Shown here piece by piece: positions 43,673 to 50,336 of a stretch of 64,000 bases of DNA (the stretch's first letter is position 1; every line of letters starts with the position of its first letter). The stretch comes from Nocardioidaceae bacterium. GTDB lineage: Bacteria; Actinomycetota; Actinomycetes; Propionibacteriales; Nocardioidaceae. Location: positions 1-64,000 of the forward strand of contig JAURVT010000002.1 in the NCBI GenBank assembly GCA_030655315.1, written 5' to 3'. Under the pieces are notes generated by a model that saw only the letters and a list, made by a program, of their open reading frames with translations, was not told the origin of the DNA and did not search any database. The position numbers were made by a program, and so were the translations under genes.

Positions 43673-44395
43673 GTGACCGACCGCCCCCTCAGCTACGCCA
43701 ACCGCACCGGGCGCCGTCCGGGCCGGACGGTGCGGGCGATGAGTGCGGTGCTGCCGGGGGTGGCGGGGGTGTGGAGCCAGGTCGAGCCGTACGCGGACGC
43801 CTGGCACGCGCACAACGTGGCGACGCTGGGCAGGCCCGGCCGACGCCTGGTCGTGCTCGGCGACTCGATGGCGCAGGGCGTGGGCGCGACGAGCCACGAC
43901 GCGGGGTGGGTCGGGCAGCTCGCGAAGCGGTTGACCGACGGCGGAGTCGAGCTCGAGGTGCTGAACCTGTCGGCGACCGGGGCGCGGGTGGACGACGTGC
44001 TCGCCCAACAGCTGCCCGCACTGGACGGGATCGGCTCACGTCCCGACGACGTCGTCGTCGTGATGGTGGGGTCGAACGACCTGTTCGGTGGGCGGGTGCA
44101 CCGGGAGCGGCTGCCGCAGGCGTACGCCGAGATCGTCGAGCGGGTGCCGGCGGGGACGCTGGTGTGCACGCTCCCCCAGCCCACCGCCGCGGCGGGACGG
44201 GCCAACGTCCACGTCGAGCGGGCCGCGGCGGACGGGCGGGTCGTCATGGTGGACCTGCGCGAGACGGGGCCGTCGTCATGGCGCGGGCGGCTGGCCGGTG
44301 ACTTCTTCCACCCCAACGACGCGGGGTACGCGGCCATCGCGGACGCGGTGGAGCCGGCCGTCCGCGCCGCGTTCGCGACCCCTCCGCGCCGATGA
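43673..44395 (+). CDS. SGNH/GDSL-family hydrolase
   Basis: The product has 240 residues. Block I VVLGDSMAQGVGA carries the nucleophile Ser, block III VMVGSNDLFGG the Gly/Asn oxyanion pair, and block V FFHPNDAGYAAIAD the Asp/His. These enzymes are lipases, esterases or deacetylases. No signal peptide is evident, so it is probably cytosolic. GTG at 43673 is the preferred start; ATG at 43739 is possible. It overlaps the IclR gene by four bases and may be co-transcribed with it. Confidence 0.87.
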   Translation: MTDRPLSYANRTGRRPGRTVRAMSAVLPGVAGVWSQVEPYADAWHAHNVATLGRPGRRLVVLGDSMAQGVGATSHDAGWVGQLAKRLTDGGVELEVLNLSATGARVDDVLAQQLPALDGIGSRPDDVVVVMVGSNDLFGGRVHRERLPQAYAEIVERVPAGTLVCTLPQPTAAAGRANVHVERAAADGRVVMVDLRETGPSSWRGRLAGDFFHPNDAGYAAIADAVEPAVRAAFATPPRR

Positions 44396-45210
44396 GGCAG
44401 GCGGACGAGGGGGCGAGGTCGGTCACCGACAAGGTGCTGGCGCTGCTGGCCGCGTTCGACGCCCAGTCCTCCGAGCTGACGCTGAGCGAGCTGGCCCGGC
44501 GGGCGGACGTGTCGCTGTCGACGGCACACCGGCGGGTGGCCGAGCTGGTGGAGTGGGGGGCGCTGGAGCGGACGCCGGCGGGGCGGTACCGGGTCGGGCT
44601 GCGGCTGTGGGAGGTCGCGTCGTTGGCGCCGCGCGGGCAGCGTCTGCGGGAGGTGGCACTGCCGTTCCTGGAGGACCTCTACGTCGTCACGCGGCAGAAC
44701 GTGCAGCTGGCGGTGCGCGAGGGCGACGAGCTGGTGTTCGTCGAGCGGCTGGCGGGGCGGGAGGCGGTGCCGGTGATGACGCGGGTCGGTGGGCGGTTCA
44801 GCCTGCACGCGACGGGCGTCGGGCTCGTGCTGCTCGCGTTCGCGCCGGCCGACGTGCAGGAGCGCGTGCTGTCCGGCGACCTCACCCGCTACACCGAGCA
44901 CACGCTCACCGACCCGCGCGAGCTGCGCCGCGTCCTCGCGCAGGTGCGGGCCGAGGGCTTTGCCGTCAGCGACCGGATGGTCACCGTCGACGCGCTGTCG
45001 GTCGCCGCCCCGGTCGTGGACGCCGCGGGCACCGTCGTCGCCGCGATCTCGCTCGTCGTCCTCGCCGACGATGCCGCGCCGATCCGCTCGCTGGTGACGA
45101 CCGTCCGCACCGCCGCACGGGGCGTCTCGCGCGCCCTGGGCATGCCCGTCGACCTCGGCTCCGCGCCGGGTGGTCCCCCCGAGCTCCTGGGACAGTCTTC
45201 CACTGAATGA
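44392..45210 (+). CDS. IclR-family transcriptional regulator
   Basis: The product has 272 residues: a winged helix-turn-helix (about 10-72; LTLSELARRADVSLSTAHRRV) and an IclR effector domain (about 85-255; RFSLHATGVGLVLLAFAP, EGFAVSDRMVTVDALSVAAPV). IclR proteins often control aromatic catabolism, and the vanA gene starts 66 bases downstream, so it likely controls the vanillate module. I did not find a convincing operator palindrome in that gap. Confidence 0.92.
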   Translation: MRQADEGARSVTDKVLALLAAFDAQSSELTLSELARRADVSLSTAHRRVAELVEWGALERTPAGRYRVGLRLWEVASLAPRGQRLREVALPFLEDLYVVTRQNVQLAVREGDELVFVERLAGREAVPVMTRVGGRFSLHATGVGLVLLAFAPADVQERVLSGDLTRYTEHTLTDPRELRRVLAQVRAEGFAVSDRMVTVDALSVAAPVVDAAGTVVAAISLVVLADDAAPIRSLVTTVRTAARGVSRALGMPVDLGSAPGGPPELLGQSSTE

Positions 45211-45276: not shown

Positions 45277-46434
45277 GTGTCCGTGCTCGACCGCCAGATG
45301 TCAGCGACCGCCAAGATCTTCCCCCACCCCCGCGACGCCTGGTACGTCGCCGCGTGGGACCACGAGGTCACCGCCAAGGCGCCGCTCGCGCGCACGATCG
45401 CCGACCGTCCGCTCGCGCTGTACCGCACCCAGGACGGACGGCCGGTCGCGCTGGCCGACGCCTGCTGGCACCGGCTCGCGCCGCTGTCGATGGGCACGCT
45501 CGTCGGCGACGACGAGGTGCAGTGCCCCTACCACGGGCTGCGCTACAACTCCTCGGGCCGCTGCACCGCGATGCCCGCGCAGGAGACGGTCAACCCGAGC
45601 GCGTCCGTGCCGTCGTTCCCCGTCGTCGAGAAGCACCGCTACGTCTGGGTCTGGGTCGGCGACCCCACCAAGGCCGACCCCGACCTGGTGCCCGACATGC
45701 ACCAGATGGACTCGCCCGACTGGGCGGGCGACGGCCTGACCATCCACGCCGACTGCAACTACCAGCTGGTGCTCGACAACCTGATGGACCTCACGCACGA
45801 GGAGTTCGTGCACAGCTCCAGCATCGGCCAGGCCGAGCTGAGCGAGGCCGAGTTCAGCACCACGCACGACGGCAGCACGGTCACCGTCAGCCGCTGGATG
45901 CGCGACATCGACGCTCCCCCGTTCTGGCTCAAGAACATGCGCGACAAGTTTCCCGGCTTCACCGGCAAGGTCGACCGCTGGCAGATCATCCACTTCGAGG
46001 CCCCCTCGACGATCTGCATCGACGTCGGCGTCGCCAAGGCCGGCACCGGCGCGCCCGAGGGCGACCGCTCGCAGGGCGTCAACGGCTACGTGATGAACAC
46101 GATCACCCCCGATCGCGACCGCAGCTGCCACTACTTCTGGGCGTTCATGCGCAACTACCGCCTCGACAGCCAGCTGATCACCACCCAGCTGCGCGACGGG
46201 GTGCACGGCGTCTTCGCCGAGGACGAGGTGATGCTCACCGCGCAGCAGAAGGCCATCGACGAGAACCCGGACTACGAGTTCTACAGCCTCAACGTCGACG
46301 CCGGCGGCATGTGGGTTCGCCGCATCCTCGACCGGATGCTGGTCGCCGAGGGCCGGCTCGACCCGGGCGACGTGTCGGTGACGAACCACGCCGCGGCCCC
46401 CGCGGACCGGCCCCGCGTCACCACCGGGGCCTGA
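45277..46434 (+). CDS. vanA: Vanillate O-demethylase oxygenase subunit (VanA-type Rieske oxygenase)
   Basis: The product has 385 residues. The Rieske cluster is Cys63-x-His65 and Cys83-x2-His86; the mononuclear iron is held by His174 and His179 in NLMDLTHEEFVH, with Asp167/Asp171 nearby. Together with VanB this demethylates vanillate to protocatechuate, releasing formaldehyde. GTG at 45277 follows AGAGGAG. The next gene is a VanB reductase, and a vanillin-type dehydrogenase lies downstream, which strengthens the substrate call; related methoxybenzoates are possible. Confidence 0.88.
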   Translation: MSVLDRQMSATAKIFPHPRDAWYVAAWDHEVTAKAPLARTIADRPLALYRTQDGRPVALADACWHRLAPLSMGTLVGDDEVQCPYHGLRYNSSGRCTAMPAQETVNPSASVPSFPVVEKHRYVWVWVGDPTKADPDLVPDMHQMDSPDWAGDGLTIHADCNYQLVLDNLMDLTHEEFVHSSSIGQAELSEAEFSTTHDGSTVTVSRWMRDIDAPPFWLKNMRDKFPGFTGKVDRWQIIHFEAPSTICIDVGVAKAGTGAPEGDRSQGVNGYVMNTITPDRDRSCHYFWAFMRNYRLDSQLITTQLRDGVHGVFAEDEVMLTAQQKAIDENPDYEFYSLNVDAGGMWVRRILDRMLVAEGRLDPGDVSVTNHAAAPADRPRVTTGA

Positions 46435-46435
46435 C

Positions 46436-47434
46436 GTGGTCGCCGACAACCGGCCCGTCTGGCAGCCGGCCGAGGTGGTCGAGTCGCGGATGGTCACCGA
46501 CCAGGTCCGACGGGTCACGCTGCGCCGCCCCGGCACCCGGCGAGCCCAGCCGGGCTCGCACGTCGACGTCCGCGTCGACCTCGGCGCACGCACCGACGTC
46601 CGCTCGTACTCGGTCGTCGAGGCGAGCGCGGACGGCTCGCAGGTCACCGTCAGCGTGATGCTCGCGCCTCGCTCGCGCGGCGGCTCACGGTTCATGCACG
46701 GGCTGCGCGAGGGCGACGTCGTCGAGTGCACCCAGCCGCTGCAGAACTTCGACCTGCGGCTCGGCGCACCCCGTCACCTGCTGGTCGCCGGCGGCATCGG
46801 CGTCACCGCGCTCGCCGCGATGGCCGAGACGCTGCGCACCACCGGACGCGACTACACGCTCGTCTACGTCGGACGCTCCCGCGCCGCGATGGCCTACCTC
46901 GACGAGCTCGAGCAGGCCCACGGCGACCGGCTCCGCGTCCACGTCGACGACCAGGGCCACCCGCTCGACGTCGCCGCGCTCGTCGACGAGGTCGCCGGAT
47001 CGTCGACGGCCCGCGCCACCGAGCTGTACGTCTGCGGGCCCATCCGGCTGATGGACGCGGTCCGTCGCGCGTGGGCCGGCGCCGGGCTGCCCGTGCACAA
47101 CCTGCGCTTCGAGACCTTCGGCAACAGCGGCTGGTTCGACGCCGAGGACTTCGTCGTCCGCGTGCCCCGCCTCGGGCTGGAGACGACGGTGGGCGCCGAC
47201 ACCACGATCCTCGAGGCGCTCACCGAGGCCGGCGCCGAGATGATGTTCGACTGCCGCAAGGGCGAGTGCGGCCTGTGCCAGGTCGACGTCCGCGACGTCG
47301 ACGGCAGCCTCGACCACCGCGACGTCTTCTTCAGCGCGCGCCAGCACGAGGCCGGCGACCAGCTCTGCACCTGCGTCTCGCGGGTCGCCTGCGGAGACGG
47401 CCGCACCGGCGTGCTGACGCTCGACCTGCCCTGA
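46436..47434 (+). CDS. vanB: Vanillate O-demethylase reductase subunit (VanB-type)
   Basis: The product has 332 residues: FMN domain (about 10-110; RSYSVVEAS is the flavin motif), NAD domain (about 112-225; LLVAGGIGVTALAAM, ELYVCGPIRLMD) and a C-terminal plant-type [2Fe-2S] domain with Cys273, Cys278, Cys281 and Cys311. It passes electrons from NADH to VanA. GTG at 46436 is one base after the vanA stop. Confidence 0.9.
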   Translation: MVADNRPVWQPAEVVESRMVTDQVRRVTLRRPGTRRAQPGSHVDVRVDLGARTDVRSYSVVEASADGSQVTVSVMLAPRSRGGSRFMHGLREGDVVECTQPLQNFDLRLGAPRHLLVAGGIGVTALAAMAETLRTTGRDYTLVYVGRSRAAMAYLDELEQAHGDRLRVHVDDQGHPLDVAALVDEVAGSSTARATELYVCGPIRLMDAVRRAWAGAGLPVHNLRFETFGNSGWFDAEDFVVRVPRLGLETTVGADTTILEALTEAGAEMMFDCRKGECGLCQVDVRDVDGSLDHRDVFFSARQHEAGDQLCTCVSRVACGDGRTGVLTLDLP

Positions 47435-47479: not shown

Positions 47480-48849
47480 ATGAACCTGCGCGACCACCTC
47501 GACCGATCGCCGATGACGCCGTACCAGTGGACCGTCGTCGGCCTGTGCATCGTCCTCAACGCCCTCGACGGCTACGACATCGCCGCGATGTCCTTCACCT
47601 CCACCCGGGTGCAGGACGAGTTCGCGCTCAGCGGGTCGCAGCTCGGCTGGCTGATCAGCGCCACGCTGATCGGCATGGCCGTCGGCGCGGCGTTGCTCGG
47701 CAACCTCGCCGACCGGTGGGGACGACGCCCGACGCTGCTCGCCGCCGTCAGCCTCGCGATGGCCGGCATGCTGCTCGCCGCGGCGGCGCCGTCCGCCCTG
47801 ACGCTCGGGGTGATCCGGTTCGTCACCGGCCTCGGCGTGGGCGGCATCCTCGCCTGCGTGACCGTGATCATCACCGAGTACTCCAACCGCCGACGCCGCG
47901 GGCTCGCGATGGGCCTCTACACCGCCGGCTACGGCATCGGCGCGACGCTCGGCGGGTTCGCCGCGGGTTCGCCGCGGTGGCGCTGCAGGGCGCCCACGGC
48001 TGGCGCTCGGTCTACCTGGTGGGCGGCCTGGTCAGCGTCGCCGTCCTCGTCGCGCTCGTCGTGGTCCTGCCCGAGTCGGTGCACCACCTGGCCAGCCACC
48101 GGCCGCGCGGCCACGAGGCGCGCCTGCGCCGGATCGCCGACCGCCTACGCGTCCCGGCCGACGTCGACCTGCTCCCCGAGGCCGAGCCCGTCGCGTCCGA
48201 CGTCACCCCGGCCAGCCCGTCCGCCCTGATCGGGCCGTCCGCCCGCCGGGCCACCCTGGCGATCTGGGTGGCGTTCTTCGCGACCATGTTCGGCTTCTAC
48301 TTCGTCAACTCGTTCACGCCGCGCATCCTCGTCGACGCCGGGATGACCGCCGACCAGGGCGTCCGCGTGGGCATGGCGCTGGCCATCGGCGGCGCGGTCG
48401 GCTCGGTCGCATACGGGCTCCTCGTCGCGCGGTACGACACCGCCCGGCTGCTCGTCCTGACGCTGATCGCGTCGGCCGCGGCCGTGTCGGTGTTCGTGGT
48501 CTCGACGGGCGCGCTGGCCGCCGCCGTCGTCATGGGCGTGGTGGTCGGGATGCTGGTCAACGCCTGCGTCGGCGGCCTCTACACCGTCACGCCGACCCTG
48601 TACCCGACGGCCGTGCGCGCGTCCGGGGTCGGCATCGCCCTCGGCGTCGGACGGCTGGGCGCGATCCTCGCCCCGGTCGCCGCCGGCAGCCTGCTCGACC
48701 TCGGGTGGACACCGGACCACCTCTACCTGATGGTGGCCCTGGTCCTCCTCGTCGGTGCGGCCGCCGCCTGGTTGCTGCCCCGTCCGGCCGTCGAGCCCCG
48801 TCCCGCGCAGACGGTCGCCGCACCCGTCCGGCAGACCACGTCCAGCTGA
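47480..48849 (+). pseudogene. AAHS-family MFS aromatic-acid transporter (VanK/PcaK-like), frameshifted
   Basis: From ATG 47480 one frame encodes the first half (LNALDGYDIAAMSF, LGNLADRWGRRPTLL, IITEYSNRRRRGLAMG); after about 47955 the rest of the transporter (LVGGLVSVAVLVALVVV to TPTLYPTAVRASGVGIALGVGR) continues in another frame. An exact 11-base tandem duplication lies at the break; removing one unit restores a 452-residue, 12-helix protein with no other damage. As it stands, translation ends at 48229 after 249 residues. It sits between vanB and the aldehyde dehydrogenase, so uptake of vanillate or a related acid is the likely original role. Confidence 0.88.
47952..47977 (+). repeat. 11-bp tandem duplication causing the transporter frameshift
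   Basis: GGGTTCGCCGC occurs twice back to back (47954-47964 and 47965-47975), and the period of 11 extends over 26 bases. An extra 11 bases shifts the frame. Slippage could remove or recreate it. Confidence 0.9.
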
Positions 48850-48884: not shown

Positions 48885-50336
48885 GTGACCCACCAGGTAC
48901 GTCTGCACATCGCCGGTCAGGACCGTGACGCCACCGGCGGCGGCACCTTCGAGCGGCGCGACCCCGTCAGCGGGGACGTCGCGACGACGGCCGCCTCCGC
49001 CGGCGTCGAGGACGGCGTGGCCGCGGTCGACGCGGCCGCCGCAGCCTTCCCTGCCTGGTCCGCCACCGGACCGGGCGAGCGACGCGCGCTGCTGCTCGCG
49101 GCCGCCGACCGGCTCGAGGCGAAGGTCGACGACTTCGCCGCGGCCACCGTCGACGAGATCGGCGCACCGGCGCACTGGGCCCACTTCAACGTGGGCCTGG
49201 CGGCCTCGGTGCTGCGCGAGGCCGCGTCCCTCACCACCCAGGTGCTGGGCGAGACGATCCCGTCGAACGTCCCAGGCAGCCTGGCCATCTCGGTGCGCAA
49301 GCCCGCGGGCGTCGTGCTCGGCATGGCGCCCTGGAACGCGCCGGTCATCCTCGGCGTGCGGGCGCTCGCGACGCCGCTCGCCGTCGGCAACACGGTCGTG
49401 TTCAAGGCGAGCGAGAAGTGCCCGCGGATCCACCGGCTGATCGTCGACGCGCTGGTCGAGGCCGGGCTGCCCGACGGCGTCGTCAACTTCGTCTCGCACG
49501 CGCCGCGGGACGCCGCGGCCGTCGTGGAGGCGATGATCGCGCACCGCGCCGTCCGCCGCGTCAACTTCACCGGCTCGACCGCGGTCGGGCGGATCATCGG
49601 CCGGCTGTGCGGCGAGCACCTCACCCCGAGCGTGCTCGAGCTCGGCGGCAAGGCGCCGTTCGTCGTCCTCGACGACGCCGACCTCGACGCCGCCGTCGAC
49701 GCGGCCGCGTTCGGTGCCTTCGCCAACTCCGGGCAGATCTGCATGTCGACCGAGCGGTTCATCGTCGACGAGAGCGTCGCCGACGCGTTCGTGCAGAAGC
49801 TGGCGGCCAAGGCCGACTCGCTGCCCGTCGGCGCCCCCGACGGGCCCGTCGTGCTCGGCTCTGTGGTCGACGCCGACACCGTCGAGCGCTGCAACACGCT
49901 GCTCGACGACGCCGTCGGGTCCGGGGCCCGCGTGGTCGCCGGCGGCCGGGCGAGCGACACCCTGATGGCCGCGACGCTGGTGGACGGCGTCACGGACCGG
50001 ATGCGGCTGTGGACCGAGGAGTCGTTCGGCCCGGTGAAGTCGATCATGCGCGTCGACGGCGCCGAGGCCGCGATCGCCGCGGCCAACGACACCGAGTACG
50101 GGCTGTCGGCGGCGGTCTTCGGTCGTGATGCCGCCCGCGCCCTGTCCGTCGCCCAGCGGATCGAGTCGGGCATCTGCCACGTCAACGGGCCGACGGTGCA
50201 CGACGAGCCGCAGATGCCGTTCGGCGGCGTCAAGGCGTCCGGGTGGGGCCGGTTCGGCGGTGTGGCCGGGGTGCACGAGTTCACCGACCTGCAGTGGATC
50301 ACCGTGCAGACGGGGCCGCGGCACTACCCGTTCTGA
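48885..50336 (+). CDS. vdh: Vanillin/aromatic aldehyde dehydrogenase
   Basis: The product has 483 residues and is an NAD(P)-dependent aldehyde dehydrogenase. The catalytic Cys286 is in FANSGQICMSTER, the general-base Glu in LELGGKAPF, and the coenzyme segment VNFTGSTAVGR is intact. It groups by sequence features with vanillin/salicylaldehyde dehydrogenases, and its place in the vanAB cluster supports vanillin to vanillate. GTG at 48885 follows an AGGA. Last gene of the module, ending before a long hairpin. Confidence 0.87.
   Translation: MTHQVRLHIAGQDRDATGGGTFERRDPVSGDVATTAASAGVEDGVAAVDAAAAAFPAWSATGPGERRALLLAAADRLEAKVDDFAAATVDEIGAPAHWAHFNVGLAASVLREAASLTTQVLGETIPSNVPGSLAISVRKPAGVVLGMAPWNAPVILGVRALATPLAVGNTVVFKASEKCPRIHRLIVDALVEAGLPDGVVNFVSHAPRDAAAVVEAMIAHRAVRRVNFTGSTAVGRIIGRLCGEHLTPSVLELGGKAPFVVLDDADLDAAVDAAAFGAFANSGQICMSTERFIVDESVADAFVQKLAAKADSLPVGAPDGPVVLGSVVDADTVERCNTLLDDAVGSGARVVAGGRASDTLMAATLVDGVTDRMRLWTEESFGPVKSIMRVDGAEAAIAAANDTEYGLSAAVFGRDAARALSVAQRIESGICHVNGPTVHDEPQMPFGGVKASGWGRFGGVAGVHEFTDLQWITVQTGPRHYPF

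Follow-up and report, generated by a model that had tools for sequence, protein, structure and literature searches.

We analysed a 64,000-nucleotide stretch of DNA from a Nocardioidaceae bacterium (hereafter the window), in which a transporter gene at 47480..48849 on the forward strand lies among other genes of an operon in the same orientation. Upstream of the operon is a gene for an IclR-family regulator (44392..45210, + strand), with matches to Pfam IclR_C (1.5e-35) and HTH_IclR and a match to the PcaR/PcaU/PobR subfamily model (2.6e-37) that falls below the cut-off. The first operon gene, vanA (45277..46434, +), encodes the oxygenase subunit of vanillate O-demethylase (Pfam Rieske and VanA_C, 1.6e-48), and the second, vanB (46436..47434, +), encodes the reductase subunit, with Fer2 and NAD/FAD-binding domains. 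The vanB product is mostly 53–59% identical to the VanB proteins at the homologue loci described below, with one partial match of 69% at a contig end. Downstream of the transporter gene is an aldehyde dehydrogenase gene (48885..50336, +; Pfam Aldedh, 1.2e-140) for which no NCBIfam equivalog scored above its cut-off; because of its position in the operon, its product is probably a vanillin dehydrogenase. As had been predicted for the rest of the pathway, vanA, vanB and the dehydrogenase gene are all open. No known RNA elements were found in the window.

When the transporter gene is read through the disruption described below, its product matches TIGR00895 (aromatic acid/H+ symport MFS) from residue 4 to residue 402, covering positions 3–398 of the 398-position profile (325.5 bits, E 4.3e-97). 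The score falls short of the curated cut-off (418.55), as does every one of the 14 control genomes, C. glutamicum among them. The 5′ frame encodes LDGYD in TM1 and LADRWGRR in loop 2–3, in agreement with DGxD and DRxGRR, which we take to be the motifs that define the AAHS family. The gene directly follows vanA and vanB. A scan of public genomes for homologues of the transporter retained 80 loci, with VanA homologues (74–84% identity) at 50 of these and VanB homologues at 51, mostly directly upstream and on the same strand. Because about 50 of the 80 loci carry both vanA and vanB, the gene is probably vanK, with vanillate as the likely substrate on the strength of this synteny. A strong match to it was found in only three of 150 sampled genomes of the family, the present genome included, and a vanK-like gene is therefore an accessory trait in the family.

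Within the gene there is a perfect tandem repeat of period 11 (47952..47977, +), which is 26 bp long, comprises 2.36 copies and has the sequence GCGGGTTCGCCGCGGGTTCGCCGCGG. It is laid out as GCGGGTTCGCC GCGGGTTCGCC GCGG, with both 11-bp units exact. No match to the repeat was obtained in 100 dinucleotide shuffles of the window, and 20 Markov-5 simulations produced no perfect tandem with a period of at least 11 and a length of at least 26. As 11 mod 3 is 2, the repeat breaks the reading frame. From the start at 47480, frame 0 is open only as far as a premature stop codon at 48227..48229 (+); the frame is lost after residue 162 and the shifted product has 249 amino acids. The 3′ remainder of the gene runs on in frame 2 to 48849, with its end at 48847–48849 as first placed. 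If one unit is skipped, the gene reads through as 452 residues uninterrupted by a stop. The original prediction, that an exact 11-bp tandem duplication splits the transporter and that deleting one unit restores a full-length AAHS-type protein, was thus borne out. With a frameshift at 47952–47977 and a stop at 48227, the gene lacks the intact ORF of a VanK and is best classed as a disrupted allele of vanK rather than as a functional VanK.

None of the 79 homologues that span the repeat site has an insertion there in the alignment, and 22 of the 79 have a one-residue deletion in the loop that follows it. A genome of the same family (G004) has an unbroken homologue with 54% identity and with vanA and vanB adjoining. 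The homologues point to the single-unit form as the ancestral state. The genus is represented by one genome only in the set compared, the present 57-contig draft assembly.

Frame 2 is open across the whole transporter gene, a point that had been missed originally, so a programmed +1 frameshift, either at the repeat or a short way beyond it, would suffice to give a full-length protein, lengthened by four residues. We regard such recoding as extremely improbable. The four residues would be added within a conserved segment, we noticed none of the known +1 slippery elements at the site, and the homologues need no shift. Moreover, open second frames are common in genes this rich in G+C, and the open frame 2 is not evidence of recoding.

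The reading that we prefer, with a probability of roughly 0.72, is that vanK has undergone a genuine and isolated loss-of-function mutation, which arose by slippage and is potentially revertible. With a single unit, the site would read GCGG-GTTCGCC-GCGG and so contain two GCGG microrepeats. During replication, the nascent strand could slip between the two GCGG sequences that flank GTTCGCC, so that 11 bp would be copied twice. Since the starts of the two microrepeats are 11 bp apart, slippage between them would yield exactly the product observed, which makes slippage the probable mechanism. A DNA hairpin as the driver of the duplication was considered and rejected, the hairpin potential being unremarkable (z −0.85).

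Ribosomes translating this allele would leave the frame after residue 162, within the conserved GYGxGATxGG segment that precedes a strongly hydrophobic stretch at residues 174–192, and would stop at codon 250. About two thirds of the transporter, at its C-terminal end, would be missing from the truncated product. We predict that this protein is inactive and that vanillate uptake is reduced; the premature stop may also have a polar effect on the downstream dehydrogenase gene. The exactness of the repeat suggests that precise reversion could occur, at a rate above that of point mutation.

To place the repeat in its genomic context, we examined perfect tandems in 541,503 bases of the genome, comprising the window plus samples of the same genome. 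Where the unit was at least 9 bp, 57 of the 60 perfect tandems had units that were multiples of three, as selection to preserve reading frames would lead one to expect. The repeat at 47952–47977 is the longest of the three frame-breaking exceptions, and no other was seen to split a gene. The other two exceptions have units of 11 bp (L130:1965-1986) and 10 bp (L106:9488-9507), and neither was flagged as gene-breaking by G+C phase. Frame-breaking short tandems in sequence of clear periodicity numbered 39, and in seven of them, one being the repeat in the transporter gene, the G+C phase changed across the repeat. The others of these seven, judged by ORF position and G+C phase rather than by homology, were rejected as gene-breaking: their positions are intergenic or at the beginning or end of a gene, or the shift is one that a repeat of that length could not produce. 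One candidate broken gene (L116:16411) proved on close inspection to be a gene that is complete, with a second, separate gene after it. The duplication event looks isolated in this assembly.

As gene-breaking tandems are not general in the assembly, two other readings of the locus are both weakened. The main rival to a real mutation is a sequencing or assembly artefact, whereby the strain would have one unit and an intact vanK. Such an error would fit a G+C-rich repeat site in a draft assembly of 57 contigs, where every other gene of the operon is open and the read-through frame is free of decay. Errors of the common sequencing platforms are, however, dominated by homopolymer indels, and an exact 11-bp insertion would be atypical of them. 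The 26 bp of the repeat are also far shorter than a read, and no further gene-breaking tandem was seen in the 541 kb sampled from this assembly. That the event is isolated and 26 bp in size speaks mildly in favour of a real mutation, and we consider an artefact unlikely.

The second reading is that of a phase-variable contingency locus, in which toggling between one and two units within the population turns vanillate uptake on and off. The repeat is exact and one unit could in principle be lost precisely, and both copy-number switching of tandem repeats (PMC12817950) and reversible silencing by frameshift (PMC6819657) have been described in other bacteria. A contingency locus would be expected to have a multi-copy tract that is conserved or varies between strains; here the copy number is just 2.36, well short of the known switching tracts, neither an insertion nor a repeat is present at this site in the homologues, and the 541-kb sample contained no other frame-breaking repeat inside a gene. 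Phase variation is therefore very unlikely, and it is more improbable still that the species uses the reversible 11-bp duplication to switch vanillate uptake crudely on and off, its population maintaining both alleles.

The absence of other lesions had originally been taken to mean that the event was very recent, reversible or an artefact. No second lesion was indeed seen, but this does not prove that the event is very recent. Only about 1.8% of the possible substitutions in this G+C-rich gene would create a stop. If indels are assumed to make up 5–12% of mutations, a second lesion becomes expected, with 95% probability, only after about 30–58 mutations, equivalent to 2.2–4.3% divergence. The absence of a second lesion therefore limits neutral drift only to about 2–4% divergence, with which the sequence is compatible. 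A recent event is likely.

Other measures of decay gave ordinary values. GC3 is 0.969 downstream of the repeat versus 0.975 upstream, and the downstream part is free of stops. The difference in identity between the N- and C-terminal parts is 0.128, as against 0.116 ± 0.032 in comparable pairs, showing no excess divergence of the 3′ part. Relaxed constraint was suggested by a first count, which ranked the transporter worst of 81 sequences at conserved columns, and was rejected when close relatives and redundant sequences had been removed; the corrected rank is 34–46 of 81 at 90% conservation and 23 of 81 at 95%. An N/C asymmetry (1/52 versus 8/63, Fisher p 0.04) was likewise rejected as a sign of decay, the comparison being post hoc and the overall 3′ divergence not in excess. 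Five private residues, F175Y, W275F, L279I, F324T and G358A, fall at columns that are invariant in all 80 homologues, and all five lie 3′ of the duplication. The corresponding asymmetry (0/32 in the 5′ part versus 5/48 in the 3′ part, p 0.08) is the largest among the 81 sequences; it is statistically weak and proves nothing.

It had also been proposed that the cell may lack this importer. The gene is split and no second orthologue of the transporter was found in the genome; a functional lack is nevertheless unproven. The only other clearly AAHS-like gene in the genome encodes a distant MFS transporter (30–34% identity; TIGR00895, 281 bits) in an intact open frame of 424 amino acids, at L104:7205-8479 (G000 contig 9, 108.2–109.5 kb), outside any aromatic cluster. 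This protein is a possible alternative importer of aromatic acids. A protocatechuate cluster on contig 43 (L108:5539-10221) comprises pobA, an IclR regulator with 50% identity to that in the window, pcaH and pcaG (356.9 and 166.3 bits, both above the cut-off) and apparent pcaIJ, the latter being two open frames recognised by eye rather than by family search. No pcaK-type transporter was seen in this cluster. The specificities of VanK and PcaK reportedly overlap in other species, going by the title of a 1999 study by D'Argenio cited in PMC12577307. Overlap between VanK and PcaK substrates in other bacteria is also described in PMC12455638. The loss of VanK might be partly covered by the contig 9 transporter or by diffusion of the acid.

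Overall, the locus holds an ordinary frameshift allele that is most likely real, and the duplication raises no new mechanistic question. It illustrates cleanly how a slippage-type duplication inactivates a single gene in a catabolic pathway that is complete in every other respect. Annotations and metabolic models of the strain should not credit it with a functional VanK, and re-reading of this allele is advisable before the strain serves in work on lignin aromatics.

In C. glutamicum, vanK, part of a vanABK operon, is described as encoding a vanillic acid importer (PMC11064420). The order vanA-vanB-vanK is present here too, and the transporter resembles the VanK/AAHS family in its below-cut-off TIGR00895 match, in DGYD in TM1 and DRWGRR in loop 2–3, and in its GYGxGATxGG segment. 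Unlike the C. glutamicum operon, the locus has a frameshifted transporter gene, an IclR-type regulator upstream and an aldehyde dehydrogenase gene downstream. Resistance genes of Staphylococcus aureus are silenced by reversible frameshift (PMC6819657) and Mycobacterium tuberculosis undergoes phase variation through tandem repeats (PMC12817950). The present allele shares with these systems a small indel or change in repeat copy number, revertible in principle, in an otherwise intact gene or promoter. Those cases mostly involve homopolymer tracts or promoter repeats for which reversion or population variation was measured, whereas the present case consists of a single duplication in a single assembly.
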